Assembly (NCBI GenBank): GCA_012839385.1
Contig: DUNL01000134.1
Span: 1-34,145 of the forward strand
Source of the DNA: Clostridiaceae bacterium
Lineage (GTDB): Bacteria; Bacillota; Clostridia; Saccharofermentanales; DTU023
DNA: 34,145 nt
Direction: 5' to 3'
In this document: one piece after another, positions 3,188 to 34,145 of the stretch
Position numbering within the stretch: the first letter of the stretch is position 1
Layout: every line of letters starts with the position of its first letter
Made by a program: the position numbers and the translations under genes
The notes under the pieces: generated by a model
Seen by the model: the letters and a program-made list of their open reading frames with translations, nothing else
Database searches by the model: none
What the model was told of the DNA's origin: nothing

Positions 3188-3204
3188 GTTGAGGGGTGAT
3201 GTCT

Positions 3205-3690
3205 ATGGCAACAAAAGCGGAACTAAAAGCACAGGCAAAATATGACAAAAAGAATACTAAGCAGGTTGGGTTAAAACTAAATTTGAACTATGATGCGGAC
3301 ATTCTTGCCAAGCTTGATAAAGAGGCGAATAAGCAAGGGTATATTAAGAATTTGATAAGGGAAGATATGAGAAATGCTAGAAGCGTTTTATCTTTAGAGT
3401 CTATACGGTTTTTGTTATTGCCTGTCGTGCAGCGATATGGCATCAAATCAATTAGTGTATTTGGATCTTATGCCCGTGATGAAGCAGAGCCAACAAGTGA
3501 TGTGGATCTTCTTATTGAAGGAGGAGATTATAAGGGTTTAATTGAATATACAAAAATGCTTGAGGAAATGGGGACTGCTCTTGGCAGGAATGTCAATGTG
3601 ATTACACAGTCAATGCTAGACCAGAGCAGTACACAGGCGGATTTTCTCTTCAAAAATAAAGTAGAAAGAGAGAAGGTGGTCCTCCTATGA
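3205..3690 (+). CDS. MNT-type nucleotidyltransferase antitoxin with N-terminal DNA-binding-like extension
   Basis: The 161-residue protein has two parts. Residues 1-55 (AKYDKKNTKQVGLKLN, then KLDKEANKQGYIKNLIRED) resemble the small ribbon-helix-helix/CopG-like proteins common in Clostridia. Residues 60-161 are a minimal nucleotidyltransferase with the exact motif GS-x10-D-x-D (G87, S88, D99, D101). In HEPN/MNT systems such enzymes neutralise the HEPN RNase by adding AMP to a tyrosine next to its active site. The gene overlaps the HEPN gene by four bases (ATGA). ATG 3205 is preferred over GTG 3196 and ATG 3199, because the Shine-Dalgarno GAGGGG ends at 3196. The catalytic motif is intact although the partner is truncated. 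Confidence 0.82.
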   Translation: MATKAELKAQAKYDKKNTKQVGLKLNLNYDADILAKLDKEANKQGYIKNLIREDMRNARSVLSLESIRFLLLPVVQRYGIKSISVFGSYARDEAEPTSDVDLLIEGGDYKGLIEYTKMLEEMGTALGRNVNVITQSMLDQSSTQADFLFKNKVEREKVVLL

Positions 3691-4034
3691 ATTTTGAAGA
3701 CAGAGACAGATTTTATTTCCTGAGAATGATTGAGCATTGCGAAAAAATTGAAAAAGCTAAAAAGAGATTTGGAGAAACCCTCGAACACTTTCTGAATGAT
3801 TCTGACTATAGGGATGTTGTTTGTATGAACATTTTTCAAATTGGTGAACTATCCAATCATATTTCAGAAGAAGCACAGGGTACCCTAAACGATATTCCTT
3901 GGCGACAAATGTACGCTATCAGAAATATATTGGCGCACGCTTATATAAAAGTTGATAAGCAAATTGTGTAGGATACGATGGTCCATGATATTCCCCAATT
4001 AGAAAAAAGGCTTAAGGAAATTATCTCTCGCTAA
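3687..4034 (+). pseudogene. HEPN-domain (DUF86) toxin with premature amber codon
   Basis: The frame from ATG 3687 gives 94 residues containing the HEPN active-site motif R-x4-H-x-Y (R79, H84, Y86 in RNILAHAY). It then hits TAG at 3969-3971 and continues in the same frame for 20 more codons (DTMVHDIPQLEKRL...) to TAA 4032. The family usually has a tryptophan at this spot, so a single TGG to TAG change explains the break. HEPN toxins of this type are ribonucleases held in check by the adjacent MNT protein. The catalytic motif lies before the stop, so a truncated but folded product is possible. Loss of the last helix makes inactivation more likely. The coupling overlap with the MNT gene is preserved. 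Confidence 0.78.
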
Positions 4035-28139: not shown

Positions 28140-28862
28140 ATGAAGTTGGACAAACATAGTAGTATTCCGCTATATGCGCAATTAAGGGAATTGATCGTTG
28201 AGCGTATCCAGGAGGGGGATTACAAACAAGGTGACAGAATACCCTCCGAGATGCAGCTTTGCAAAGAATTAGATTTATCGCGCCCTACCGTGAGACAGGC
28301 AATATCCGAGTTGGTGTCGGATGGGATTTTAGAAATTCATAAGGGTCGAGGCACCTATGTCGCGACTGAGCCGGAACGCTTGTCAATTCCACACTTTAAC
28401 GCGCTTAGTTTTTCTTTTCTCAATCTTAACTCTTATGATGATATTGAGCTACGCCCGGTTATGTTGGTTGAGCCGGATAGTGAACTTGACGAAATTTTCG
28501 GCATTACCGGCAAACATCCGGGTTATTGGTTAGCGCAATGGCCTATTTATTATGATCATCAGATTCATGGTTGGTGTTCATCGTATATTCCGGTATCTAT
28601 TTTTCCTGACTTGGGACAAAGTATCAGTTCCGGTAAAAGAATGGTGGATATTAAATCAAATAAATATGCTTTCTTGCCGAATAAGGGCAGTGTCCATATT
28701 TTTGCCAGGCCGGCTCGCAATCGAGAAGCTAAAATGCTTGAGATACCCAGACGCTCCTTTGTTCTGGCTGTGGAAGGGCCTTTGTTCGCGCGTAATGGCA
28801 ATGTCTGTGAAGTTATTAGAACGGCTTTGCGTCCGGAATTAATTAGACTTGAAATCAACTGA
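28140..28862 (+). CDS. GntR-family regulator, HutC/UTRA type
   Basis: A 240-residue repressor-type protein. The N-terminal winged helix-turn-helix spans residues 8-75 (IPLYAQLRELIVERIQEGDY, RIPSEMQLCKELDLSRPTVRQAI, HKGRGTYV). The C-terminal UTRA-like ligand domain runs from about 85 to 238. Such proteins sense small metabolites (sugars, amino acids, fatty acids); the ligand here is unknown. ATG 28140 follows GGGGGA (28127-28132). Its stop is one base from the cysteine desulfurase start, so it is probably the first gene of a gntR-iscS-thiI operon. Confidence 0.9.
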   Translation: MKLDKHSSIPLYAQLRELIVERIQEGDYKQGDRIPSEMQLCKELDLSRPTVRQAISELVSDGILEIHKGRGTYVATEPERLSIPHFNALSFSFLNLNSYDDIELRPVMLVEPDSELDEIFGITGKHPGYWLAQWPIYYDHQIHGWCSSYIPVSIFPDLGQSISSGKRMVDIKSNKYAFLPNKGSVHIFARPARNREAKMLEIPRRSFVLAVEGPLFARNGNVCEVIRTALRPELIRLEIN

Positions 28863-28863
28863 T

Positions 28864-30009
28864 ATGCCTAATAAGGAAATTTATCTTGATTATGCCGCTA
28901 CCAGCCCTGTAAAAGCGGAAATTCTGGATTCTTATTTTACAGATTTAAATGAAATTTACGCGAATCCCGCGTCCGGTCATGAGGCCGGACATCAGGCTAT
29001 GTTGGCTATCGACAGAGCGCGAGCTATACTATCTCGGGTTTTTCACGCTAAGCCACATGAGCTGATCTTTACTTCAGGTGGTACCGAATCTTTGAACTTG
29101 GCCTTGCAAGGTCTGGCCGGGGCTTATGTCAGGCTCCCCCGCAAGATTGTTATTTCGGCGGGTGAGCATGAGGCGGTAAGAGCTGTTTCTCGAGCTATAA
29201 ATTATGATGTGTTTGAAATAGGGCTGGACCCTGATAGCGGCACAGTAGTAAGAGAAAATCTGATCGGGATTGTTGAAAAACAGCAACCGGGGATCGTGAG
29301 TTTAATTTATATAAGCAATGAGACAGGAGCGATAAATCCGGTTAGAGAATTAATCTCAGAGATACGTGGTCTTAGTCCCCGAACTAAAATTCATCTTGAC
29401 GCTGTACAGGCGGCAGGGAAGGTGGAACTGGATTTTTCCGCCCTTGATTGCGATCTGATGTCAATTTCCGGGCATAAGCTAGGTTCTCCTAAAGGTATCG
29501 GTATCCTTATCAAGCGGGATAAAACTTTACTAAAGCCGCTTCTTTATGGTGGAGGGCAGCAGTCAGGCCTACGCTCCGGCACGGAAAGCGCTCCCTTGGC
29601 TCTAGCCTTGGCTAGAGCGGCAGAACGGGCTACGTCACAATTGACAGACAACGCCGAGCGATGTCTTTTGTTAAAAAACCTGTTTCTCGAGTCCCTCAGA
29701 GAGATTACAACTGAATTCAGATTGCTCTCGCCATCTACGGCCGTACCTCAGATTATTGCCCTGTCTTTTCCTCGTCTACGCGGGGAAACACTGGTCAACG
29801 CGGCTAGCGTGAGAGGAGTATATATCTCACATGGTTCCGCTTGTTCCGGGCTTCATGTGGGTGAAAGCCCTGCCCTCAGAGCTTTAGGATTATCTGAGGA
29901 CGAAATATTAGGAACCGTAAGGGTTAGTTTGAATGAGGACGTCGCTGAAGATGATATTGTCGCCGCGGCGCGGATTATCGGTTCCGAGTACCTGAGGTGG
30001 AGATTATAG
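28864..30009 (+). CDS. Cysteine desulfurase (NifS/IscS family)
   Basis: A 381-residue PLP enzyme that removes sulfur from cysteine as an enzyme-bound persulfide. It has the N-terminal YLDYAATSPVK, ESLNLALQ, the H-L-D-A-V-Q-A-A-G segment, PLP lysine K205 in SGHKLGSPKG, the GGGQQSGLRSGTES stretch, and the catalytic C327 in HGSACSG. Directly abutting thiI, it is likely the sulfur donor for 4-thiouridine in tRNA, like NifZ in Bacillus. ATG 28864 is chosen; the TTG at 28849 lies inside the regulator gene. A second cysteine desulfurase begins at 34010. Confidence 0.94.
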   Translation: MPNKEIYLDYAATSPVKAEILDSYFTDLNEIYANPASGHEAGHQAMLAIDRARAILSRVFHAKPHELIFTSGGTESLNLALQGLAGAYVRLPRKIVISAGEHEAVRAVSRAINYDVFEIGLDPDSGTVVRENLIGIVEKQQPGIVSLIYISNETGAINPVRELISEIRGLSPRTKIHLDAVQAAGKVELDFSALDCDLMSISGHKLGSPKGIGILIKRDKTLLKPLLYGGGQQSGLRSGTESAPLALALARAAERATSQLTDNAERCLLLKNLFLESLREITTEFRLLSPSTAVPQIIALSFPRLRGETLVNAASVRGVYISHGSACSGLHVGESPALRALGLSEDEILGTVRVSLNEDVAEDDIVAAARIIGSEYLRWRL

Positions 30010-31227
30010 ATGCAAGAGAATTTGAGTAATGGATATGAGGAGATAATTCTCGTCAGAATCGGCGAAATAGCTCTTAAGGGGGCTAACCGCAGTAAATTTT
30101 ATAATCAATTGATAGGGAATATCAGATATCGGCTCCGTGATCTGGGAAGATTTGACATTAGGCAAAGTCATACCCGTATTTGGATTAAGCCCAAGAACGA
30201 AATATTTCCGGCTCAAGAGATCTTAAAGCGCGTTAGTAAAATTTTCGGCATTGTATCTGCCAGTCTGGTGAGAACTTTTGTGGCAGAACCGCGGATTCTC
30301 CGAGAGCAGTTGTTAGACTATGCCAATGAAGTCATTTCAGGTAAAGATAAACTAAGTTTCAAAATTGAGACTCGCCGCGTGAATAAGAATTTTCCGCTTA
30401 GTAGTTACGAGGTTTCCAGCGCTGCCGGCAGTCTTCTGTTAGAGAAATTTCCTACTGTACTGACAGTTGATGTCCATAATCCTGACCTCGTATTTTCTAT
30501 CGAGATCAGAGAAAAAATATATTTATTCTCTGACAAAATAGATGGTCCCAAAGGCTTACCGGTAGGGATGGGGGGCAAAGGTCTGGCGCTTTTATCCGGT
30601 GGTATAGACAGTCCGGTGGCCGCTTGGCTGATGGCTTCCCGTGGCATGATGCTTGATACCGTATACTTTCATACGCCACCCTATACCAGCTCCAGGGCCC
30701 TGGACAAGGTTATTCGTCTCTCTCAAATACTGTCTAGGTATCTGGGTAACCACCGTTTATATATTGTGAATTTTACAGACATTCAGTTAGAACTTAATGA
30801 CAATTGTCGCAACGATATGCTGACAATCGTGATGCGTCGTATGATGATGAGGATTGCCTCAAGGCTCGCTAGTCAATTAGGATTTAAGTCATTAATAACA
30901 GGTGAGAGTTTAGGACAGGTGGCAAGTCAAACTCTGGAGGCTCTTATTACCACGGAAAAAGCTTCAGAGCATATCGTATTTCGGCCTCTGATCGGTTTAG
31001 ACAAAGATGAAATCACACGACTTTCCAGACAAATAGGAACATACGAGACCAGCATCGAGCCCTATGAGGATTGTTGCACGGTCTTTGTTTCTCGTCATCC
31101 TAAAACATTTCCCTCAGTCGAAGACGCTAAGTGGGCAGAACAGGATCTTGATATAAACCATCTCATTACCAGAGGTTTAGAAAGCGTTACTACTCAAGAG
31201 ATCTTCCTCCGCGATCATCTTGACTAA
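30010..31227 (+). CDS. thiI: tRNA 4-thiouridine synthase ThiI
   Basis: A 405-residue protein that activates uridine 8 of tRNA with ATP and accepts sulfur from a cysteine desulfurase. Order: N-terminal ferredoxin-like domain (VRIGEIALKGANRSKFYNQL), THUMP domain (about 60-170), and a PP-loop ATPase with LSGGIDSPVAAWLMASRG. The C-terminal part carries TGESLGQVASQTLEAL and SIEPYEDCCTVFVSRHPKT. It lacks the C-terminal rhodanese domain of the E. coli protein, as in Bacillus and most Firmicutes. Its start is directly adjacent to the desulfurase stop. Confidence 0.96.
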   Translation: MQENLSNGYEEIILVRIGEIALKGANRSKFYNQLIGNIRYRLRDLGRFDIRQSHTRIWIKPKNEIFPAQEILKRVSKIFGIVSASLVRTFVAEPRILREQLLDYANEVISGKDKLSFKIETRRVNKNFPLSSYEVSSAAGSLLLEKFPTVLTVDVHNPDLVFSIEIREKIYLFSDKIDGPKGLPVGMGGKGLALLSGGIDSPVAAWLMASRGMMLDTVYFHTPPYTSSRALDKVIRLSQILSRYLGNHRLYIVNFTDIQLELNDNCRNDMLTIVMRRMMMRIASRLASQLGFKSLITGESLGQVASQTLEALITTEKASEHIVFRPLIGLDKDEITRLSRQIGTYETSIEPYEDCCTVFVSRHPKTFPSVEDAKWAEQDLDINHLITRGLESVTTQEIFLRDHLD

Positions 31228-31319: not shown

Positions 31320-32570
31320 ATGGGTTGTTTATATTGTACAGCTGTCGAGCTGACTGATCCGGAACTCTTTGCGGCAATTAAAAGTGAGCTCAATCGTCAA
31401 CAAAATAAGCTTGAACTTATCGCGTCAGAAAATTTTGTCAGTTTAGCGGTGTTAGAAGCAGGTGGTTCAGTACTTACTAATAAATACGCGGAAGGGTATC
31501 CTGGGAAACGCTACTATGGCGGCTGTGAATTTGTTGATATAGTTGAGCAATTGGCGATTGACAGGGCCAAGGAGATATTTCAGGCGGAACATGCCAATGT
31601 GCAGCCCCATTCCGGAGCTTCCGCCAATACAGCAGTTTATTTCGCTACCTTAGAACCGGGAGATTCTATTTTAGGTATGGATTTATCCCATGGCGGACAT
31701 TTGACGCATGGTATGAAAATCAATATTAGCGGCAGATTCTTTAATTCTTATAGCTATCAAGTGTCACCGGAAACCTACCAAATTGACTATAAAAAATTGC
31801 TGGTCAAGGCCAAAGAAGTTAGACCTAAGATGATTATCGCCGGTGGTAGCGCGTATCCAAGAGCGATTGACTTTAAAGCTTTTAGAGAAATTGCCGACGA
31901 AGTAGGTGCCTTGCTCTTAGTTGACATGGCGCATATCGCGGGTATTGTCGCGGCGGGACTACATATGAATCCGGTGCCTTATGCTGACTTCGTTACCTCT
32001 ACTACCCACAAGACTTTATGTGGACCTAGGGGCGGCATTATCCTTTGCAAAGAAAAATATGCAAACGCGATTGATTCCGCTGTCTTCCCGGGCACTCAAG
32101 GTGGTCCTCTCATGCATATTATCGCGGCCAAGGCAGTGGCCTTTAAACAGGTTATGCAACCATCATTCCTAGATTATCAGAAGCGCGTGCTGGCCAATGC
32201 TAAAGCTTTAGCCGAAGGCTTCATAAACAGAGGTGTAGCTGTTGTTTCCGGTGGAACAGACACACATTTACTCTTGCTTGACCTTAGAACAACCGGTATC
32301 AGCGGGCAAGAATTACAGGAAAGATTGGACAAAGTTAATATCACCTGCAATAAGAATACAATTCCCTTTGACACTGAATCGCCGATGGTAACATCCGGTA
32401 TCCGACTGGGAACACCCGCGCTTACAACCAGAGGCTTTAACGAAGATGATATGGATAAGATAGCGGGACTAATTAGCCACGCGATTTATGATTACGAAAA
32501 TAAAAAGGAGCATATAGTAAAAGAAGTCGCCACGCTATGCGAAAAGTATCCACTTTATGACGAACTCTAA
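31320..32570 (+). CDS. glyA: Serine hydroxymethyltransferase
   Basis: A 416-residue PLP enzyme converting serine and tetrahydrofolate to glycine and 5,10-methylene-THF. Signatures are [52 protein letters not shown] and the PLP lysine in [14 protein letters not shown]. It opens with an unusual short [11 protein letters not shown] segment bearing two cysteines before the conserved region. ATG 31320 follows AGGAGGGG. Its product feeds FolD (8419). It overlaps rarA by 14 bp, so the two are co-transcribed. Confidence 0.97.
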
Positions 32571-33909
32571 ACCAACTGAAGAACAATTGGCTCTCGCGCG
32601 TCGACAACCCTTAGCGTTTCGTATGGCTCCACAAAGCATAACTGAGGTTGTAGGGCAATCTCATCTTCTAGCCGAAGGCAAAATGCTAAGGCGTATGATT
32701 GAGGCTGATCGCCTGTCCACAATTATCTTGTTCGGACCACCGGGGACAGGGAAGACCTCCCTAGCACGTGTGATTGCCAGAACTACTCAATACAATTTTA
32801 AAAAGTTGAATGCTGTTACTTCCGGTGTCGCTGATATTAAGAGAATAGTTAGTGAGGCCGAGAATCCGCTACTGACCCCGGAAGGCAGAACCATACTTTT
32901 TATTGATGAGATACATCGCTTTAATAAAGCGCAACAAGACGCGCTTCTGCCTCATGTAGAGAGCGGTACTTTAACTTTAATTGGCGCTACCACGGAGAAT
33001 CCTTTTTTTGAGGTGAATAAAGCGCTAATTTCACGTTCCACGGTCTTTCAACTCTATCCGCTTGAAAAAGAAGACATAATTGTCCTATTAAGAAGGGCCT
33101 TAGCGGATCCGGATCGAGGTTATGGCTTTCTGGATATCAATATAAGCGAAGAAAGCTTGGACTTCGCGGCTTCTCTAGCTAGTGGTGACGCCAGAGTAGC
33201 GCTCAACGCGCTTGATTTGGCTGTGCTGACTACCGATCAGCAAAACGGTAGTATTAATATTGATTTGGATACGATGCGAGACTGCATGCAGAAGAAAGCT
33301 CCTCAGTATGACAAAGCAGGTGAGAACCATTACGATACGATTAGCGCTCTGATAAAATCTATGCGTGGTAGCGATCCCGATGCCGCTCTCCATTATCTTG
33401 CTCGCGCTTTGGAGGCGGGAGAGGATATCGCCTTCATAGCTAGACGCTTGGTGATTCACGCTGCTGAAGATGTTGGCATGGCTAATCCGCAAATCTTACC
33501 TCTCGCGGTAGCTGCCTATCATGCGGTACAGGCAATAGGAATGCCTGAGGCCAGATTGATTCTTGCCCAGGCGGCAGTTGCTATAGCTACCAGCCCGAAA
33601 TCTAATCGATGTTATGTAGGCATAGATAAAGCTTTGGCGGATATCCGGGCAGGAAGTATTCCGGAGATTCCTTTCCATTTGCGCAACGCTCCTCTTAAGG
33701 GGATGTCGGAGCTAGGTTACGGCATGGATTATCAGTATGATCACGACTATCCTCAAGCGATATCGTATCAGAGATTTTTACCGGATAGTTATGAAGAAGG
33801 TAAGTATTATCAACCCTCGGACAGCGGTTATGAAGCGAAAATTAAGAACTGGCTCGCTAAAATACGAAAACTGAGAACCGAGGGCCGGAAGAAAAACATT
33901 GAAAAGTAA
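32557..33909 (+). CDS. rarA: Replication-associated recombination protein RarA (MgsA) AAA+ ATPase
   Basis: A 450-residue clamp-loader-like ATPase that acts at stalled replication forks. It has the N-terminal [21 protein letters not shown], Walker [10 protein letters not shown], Walker [14 protein letters not shown], sensor 1 [12 protein letters not shown], then the tetramerisation and C-terminal MgsA domain ([23 protein letters not shown] cut into segments, [19 protein letters not shown]). Length and motifs are complete. It begins inside the end of glyA. Confidence 0.95.
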
Positions 33910-33929: not shown

Positions 33930-34145
33930 ATGCACCTAGCTTAATGTTTGATTTAGGAGTAATAAGTATAAATGTCTAATAACTATAAAAATCTTAGGAG
34001 ACGGCTTTAATGAAAAAAGAGCGGATCTATTTTGATCATGCGGCGACAACACGCTCTTTTTTCATTAAAGCCGTCTCCTAAGATTTTTATAGTTATTAGA
34101 CATTTATACTTATTACTCCTAAATCAAACATTAAGCTAGGTGCAT
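33930..34145. repeat. Perfect 94-bp inverted repeat with 28-base loop at the window end
   Basis: Bases 33930-34023 are the exact reverse complement of 34052-34145, with a 28-base loop at 34024-34051. The left arm contains an intergenic region, a ribosome site (TAGGAG) and the start codon of a cysteine desulfurase; the right arm merely repeats it backwards and ends exactly at the last base. A short AGTAAC-TTGA-GTTACT hairpin (33905-33920) just before it carries the rarA stop. The long repeat looks like a fold-back chimera rather than a natural element. Confidence 0.97.
34010..34051 (+). CDS. Second cysteine desulfurase, first 14 codons only (cut by the inverted repeat)
   Basis: ATG 34010 follows TAGGAG (33995-34000). 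The 14 codons encode MKKERIYFDHAATT, the typical NifS/IscS N-terminus (YFDHAATTP). From 34052 the sequence turns into the reverse complement of its own upstream region and reaches a stop within ten codons, so the true gene continues off this sequence. A role in Fe-S assembly or tRNA 2-thiolation (with mnmA) would be typical but cannot be tested here. Confidence 0.72.

Follow-up and report, generated by a model that had tools for sequence, protein, structure and literature searches.

An exact fold-back at the end of a clostridial contig, interrupting a cysteine desulfurase gene, is very probably a strand-switch chimera retained in the assembly

The window, i.e. the whole stretch of 34,145 nt that was analysed, comprises the entire contig C3 of assembly G000 (G000:C3) from a Clostridiaceae bacterium. 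Close to its right end, an intact gene for a rarA/mgsA-type AAA+ ATPase is followed, after 100 nt, by the ATG of a NifS-type cysteine desulfurase gene. A Shine-Dalgarno-like motif AGGAGA is located in the intervening region at about 33996-34001, and the desulfurase frame can be read for 14 codons, translating as MKKERIYFDHAATT, before the contig folds back on itself (Table 1).

Table 1. Features at the right end of the window
Feature	Coordinates	Strand	Remarks
rarA/mgsA-type AAA+ ATPase	32557..33909	+	intact upstream neighbour; MgsA_C, 226 bits
NifS-type cysteine desulfurase, codons 1-14	34010..34051	+	rest on G000:C78 from base 5
Fold-back (arms and loop)	33930..34145		sole long perfect inverted repeat of the window
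Left arm	33930..34023	+	genuine: intergenic tail, Shine-Dalgarno, desulfurase bases 1-14
Loop	34024..34051	+	genuine: remainder of desulfurase codons 1-14, from the last base of codon 5
Right arm	34052..34145	-	false inverted copy of 33930-34023; not genomic here

A reading made earlier from the sequence alone had described two exact 94-base arms around a 28-base loop, with the second arm ending at the last base, and had taken the left arm and loop for ordinary sequence made up of an intergenic region, a Shine-Dalgarno motif and 14 codons of a NifS-type gene. This description agrees with our results: the arms are 94 nt long and 100% complementary (94 of 94 pairs), the loop measures 28 nt, the right arm stops at the final base of the contig, and gene calls and translation gave the same content for the left arm and loop. 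The other inverted-repeat pairs listed in the window were far from such perfection (32 nt at 88% and 25 nt at 84%). From base composition alone, about 4e-50 repeats of this kind would be expected by chance, so that a chance origin is excluded. A genome search for further occurrences of the fold-back returned only the site itself.

Several other features of the window were recorded. Its left end (1-56) cuts into a tRNA gene, matched by the Rfam tRNA model at 1-53 (truncated at the 5' side, model positions 20-71); this gene was recognized by eye as tRNA-Trp with a CCA anticodon and represents an ordinary site for a contig break. At 136-1592, an AbiEi-like gene, whose match of 22.3 bits falls short of the cut-off of 25, stands in tandem with an AbiEii gene (137.7 bits); judging from these matches, the two probably constitute a type IV toxin-antitoxin pair. 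Similarly, a nucleotidyltransferase gene (48.3 bits) and a HepT-like gene (56.4 bits) at 3196-3971 overlap by 4 bases and are a probable MNT-HepT pair. A second, more diverged desulfurase of the NifS/IscS type (TIGR03402, 250.9 bits, below cut-off), directly followed by thiI, occupies 28849-31227, 5 kb upstream of the interrupted gene.

A false right arm requires that the remaining part of the desulfurase gene sit elsewhere in the assembly, and this constitutes the decisive test. A search of the genome for the aminotransferase class V family gave nine matches, one of which begins at base 5 of contig C78, at the very contig edge, and lacks the first nine profile positions. C78 opens with AACA, identical to the last four bases of the loop (34048-34051), and proceeds with GCA GTA CAT CCT CAA... 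Joining the 14 codons of the window with C78 from base 5 yields a single frame of 414 amino acids, which reads MKKERIYFDHAATT|AVHPQVLESMLPILEHVYGNPSSF... and thus continues past the junction with AVHPQVL... When compared with NCBIfam TIGR03402 (NifS), the C78 part alone covers positions 11-379 and scores 520 bits (cut-off 530.75); the first 10 positions are encoded on the C3 side. The desulfurase gene is therefore uninterrupted in the organism, and contigs C3 and C78 are chromosomal neighbours. The sequence-only reading had proposed to look for reads in which a normal desulfurase frame extends beyond codon 14; here it is a contig, not reads, that carries the frame on exactly from the junction.

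The same gene order was found in relatives. In all four genomes of the same genus that were compared (G001-G004), rarA is followed by the desulfurase gene, with a gap of 87-98 nt as against 100 nt here. Their desulfurases open as the one here does, with IYFDHAATTAVRPEV or a closely similar sequence, and have the initial stretch IYFDHAATT in common with it. A NifU/IscU-like frame, named by eye, comes next in three of the four, while the stretch fetched from the fourth ends earlier. Since the left arm runs in frame into C78 and lies in a gene order common to all four genomes, it can be regarded as genuine. No perfect hairpin with arms of at least 30 nt was present in the four rarA-desulfurase regions. 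Likewise, none (arm at least 30 nt, loop up to 200 nt) was detected in 187,083 bases of 29 same-genus loci, nor in 973,937 bases of 80 related loci.

Next, other contig ends of the assembly were considered. G000 consists of 291 contigs (1.96 Mb, 88.9% complete, 5.9% contaminated). We sampled 76 of them, chosen by number or through matches of other searches and hence non-randomly; 31 were set aside because they read as N throughout, so that 45 contigs with 90 readable ends remained. Seven of these ends (about 7-8%) carried fold-backs, whose exact arms span 52-94 nt and whose loops span 23-59 nt; if C3 and the fetched partners C78 and C19 are disregarded, the count is six of 84. They comprise the right ends of C1 (arm/loop 94/41), C3 (94/28), C12 (81/42), C259 (76/59) and C152 (52/23), and the left ends of C160 (87/42) and C100 (58/28). 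Beyond the junction, the seven contigs overrun by 94, 94, 87, 82, 81, 76 and 76 bases. Searches for second copies of the fold-backs at C259 right, C160 left and C100 left returned, in each case, their own site only. As C1 and C3 both have arms of 94 nt, an arm length fixed by the assembler was considered, but values of 76, 81 and 87 at other ends led us to reject it.

At C100 left and C152 right, the arm is followed by a second switch, after which exactly 24 plus-strand bases are copied from about 200 bases back; the C100 hairpin begins 25 bases in from the contig end. A similar plus-strand tail of approximately 20 nt, as estimated by eye, is found at the left end of C28. Word size was considered as a source of the 24-nt tails of C100 and C152. 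The fold-back at C259 right lies within a tRNA-Tyr gene, and its loop goes with the outer arm, being therefore inverted relative to the contig; this is the same chimera viewed from the other strand.

Perfect hairpins (arm at least 30 nt, loop up to 200 nt) in 446,004 scanned bases of the assembly were confined to contig ends: all six found without the right end of C152, which was added later, were terminal, and no internal one was detected. Two further assemblies from the genus, comparably fragmented (about 240-260 contigs each), offered 14 readable contigs out of 25 and 20 out of 27, respectively; fold-backs were observed at none of 27 and none of 40 ends. The difference between seven of 90 and none of 67 ends is modest (Fisher p = 0.02).

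Three of the seven fold-backs could be traced by means of the gene they break, and all three continue at the junction on another contig: C3 on C78 (nifS), C1 on C19 (pyrimidine-nucleoside phosphorylase) and C152 on C28 (upp). The remaining four (C12 right, C100 left, C160 left and C259 right), which include sites other than protein genes, fall outside this traced set. C1 stops within the phosphorylase at ...MVAAQG, the gene being named from a match of the missing portion to PYNP_C. The C-terminal domain of this enzyme is located at the start of C19, which reads GDASYINGDK... past the junction; the two contigs share 23 exact bases up to the junction, while the first two bases of C19 are GC against GA in C1. 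As for C152, it stops within upp, and the missing end of upp is on C28. The left end of C28 (1-120) is itself folded back around the C152 site, and single bases are mismatched within the false sequence there.

If the chromosome, or that of a subset of the population, carried a genuine inverted repeat, a hairpin end or an inverted duplication, a contig end is likewise where it would be expected, because perfect inverted repeats stop assemblies; terminal position by itself thus proves nothing. However, the desulfurase is whole once C3 and C78 are joined, the relatives carry no hairpin at this locus, and the same structure recurs at unrelated sites, including the interior of upp and of the phosphorylase gene. 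We therefore consider a real repeat very improbable. It is also most unlikely that the fold-backs represent real hairpin-ended or inverted-duplicated molecules, for example from broken replication forks, that were assembled where ordinary reads ended.

In contrast, an exact inverted copy, a true continuation elsewhere and recurrence at unrelated sites were all observed, as would be characteristic of a chimera. We conclude, with a probability of about 0.97, that a strand-switch chimera retained at the contig end, and not a biological structure, accounts for the fold-back. The sequence-only reading had likewise favoured an artefact, and both the C78 continuation and the recurrence at other contig ends lend support to it; its warning that the last 94 bases are not genomic holds for 34052-34145 at this position.

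The true chromosome runs from rarA across 100 nt into the desulfurase gene and on, uninterrupted, into C78. At 34051, the assembly leaves the plus strand and takes up 94 minus-strand bases, the first of them at 34023, which lies 28 bases back. Ordinary reads assembled across 34051 may have been few or absent, so that chimeric reads could have extended the contig end and escaped pruning. Ordinary reads probably did run out, since C3 and C78 overlap by 4 bases and C1 and C19 by about 25, which is too short for many assemblers. Furthermore, the overrun of 76-94 bases in the seven cases would fit extension by single reads of approximately 100 nt.

The junctions bear on the way in which such a chimera might have been formed. 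The base following 34051 is G on C78 (GCAGTA...) and C on C3 (CGCTC...), while the bases preceding the right arm are ...TAGATC on the opposite strand and ...ACAACA on C3. When judged against the true C78 continuation, the C3 junction therefore shares 0 nt on either side. It had been suggested that the switch point contains a short microhomology (GAGCG/CGCTC), but this did not hold: 34019-34023 and 34052-34056 are simply the first five (inner) pairs of the arm. Among the five junctions in the assembly that could be measured, four share 0 nt and one shares 2 nt.

One special case of the chimera reading is primed template switching during multiple displacement amplification (MDA), in which a displaced 3' end would anneal to the nearby opposite strand and copy back. 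PMC1855051 reports that 85% of 475 MDA chimeras were inverted, and the main MDA product is described as an inverted join whose two parts are separated by a short segment. They resemble our fold-backs in joining an inverted nearby segment of the opposite strand, with an unpaired stretch left between the arms, and the second switch back to the plus strand at two contig ends also speaks for MDA. On the other hand, PMC1855051 gives mostly 2-21 complementary bases at the junctions, and at least 2 at 93.5% of inverted joins less than 10 kb apart. Complementarity of at least 2 bases is absent from the C3 junction and present at a single one of the five measured. An origin by MDA thus appears rather unlikely, though far from negligible.

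The other special case is a fold-back arising by ligation or end repair in the library, or a wrong-orientation join made by software, none of which involves annealing. Junctions without shared bases would be expected here, all seven overruns fall within 76-94 bases as they would under a read-length limit, and the single mismatches within the false sequence at upp point in the same direction. A single wrong join gives only one switch, however, whereas two of the ends need two. We regard this origin as reasonably probable. The junctions themselves favour ligation, end repair or read joining slightly over MDA, and five junctions cannot decide between them.

Related artefacts have been described. 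The library palindromes of PMC3946424 and PMC10908179, including interrupted ones, share with our fold-backs a perfect or nearly perfect reverse-complement 3' extension and an unpaired middle, but they concern single reads of ancient or historic DNA or of clinical human DNA, whereas the present cases are ends of bacterial contigs. The palindromes in amplified long reads treated in PMC6218980 are artificial as well, arise after amplification and spoil assembly; those are long-read data, unlike the assembled false arm of at most 94 bases seen here. Narrow word searches of open-licence literature turned up no earlier publication on fold-backs at the contig ends of metagenome assemblies.

For the organism, the fold-back has no biological meaning, and its use is practical only. 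Bases 34052-34145 should be trimmed, and gene callers as well as surveys of hairpins or inverted repeats run on such assemblies would take the false tails as features.
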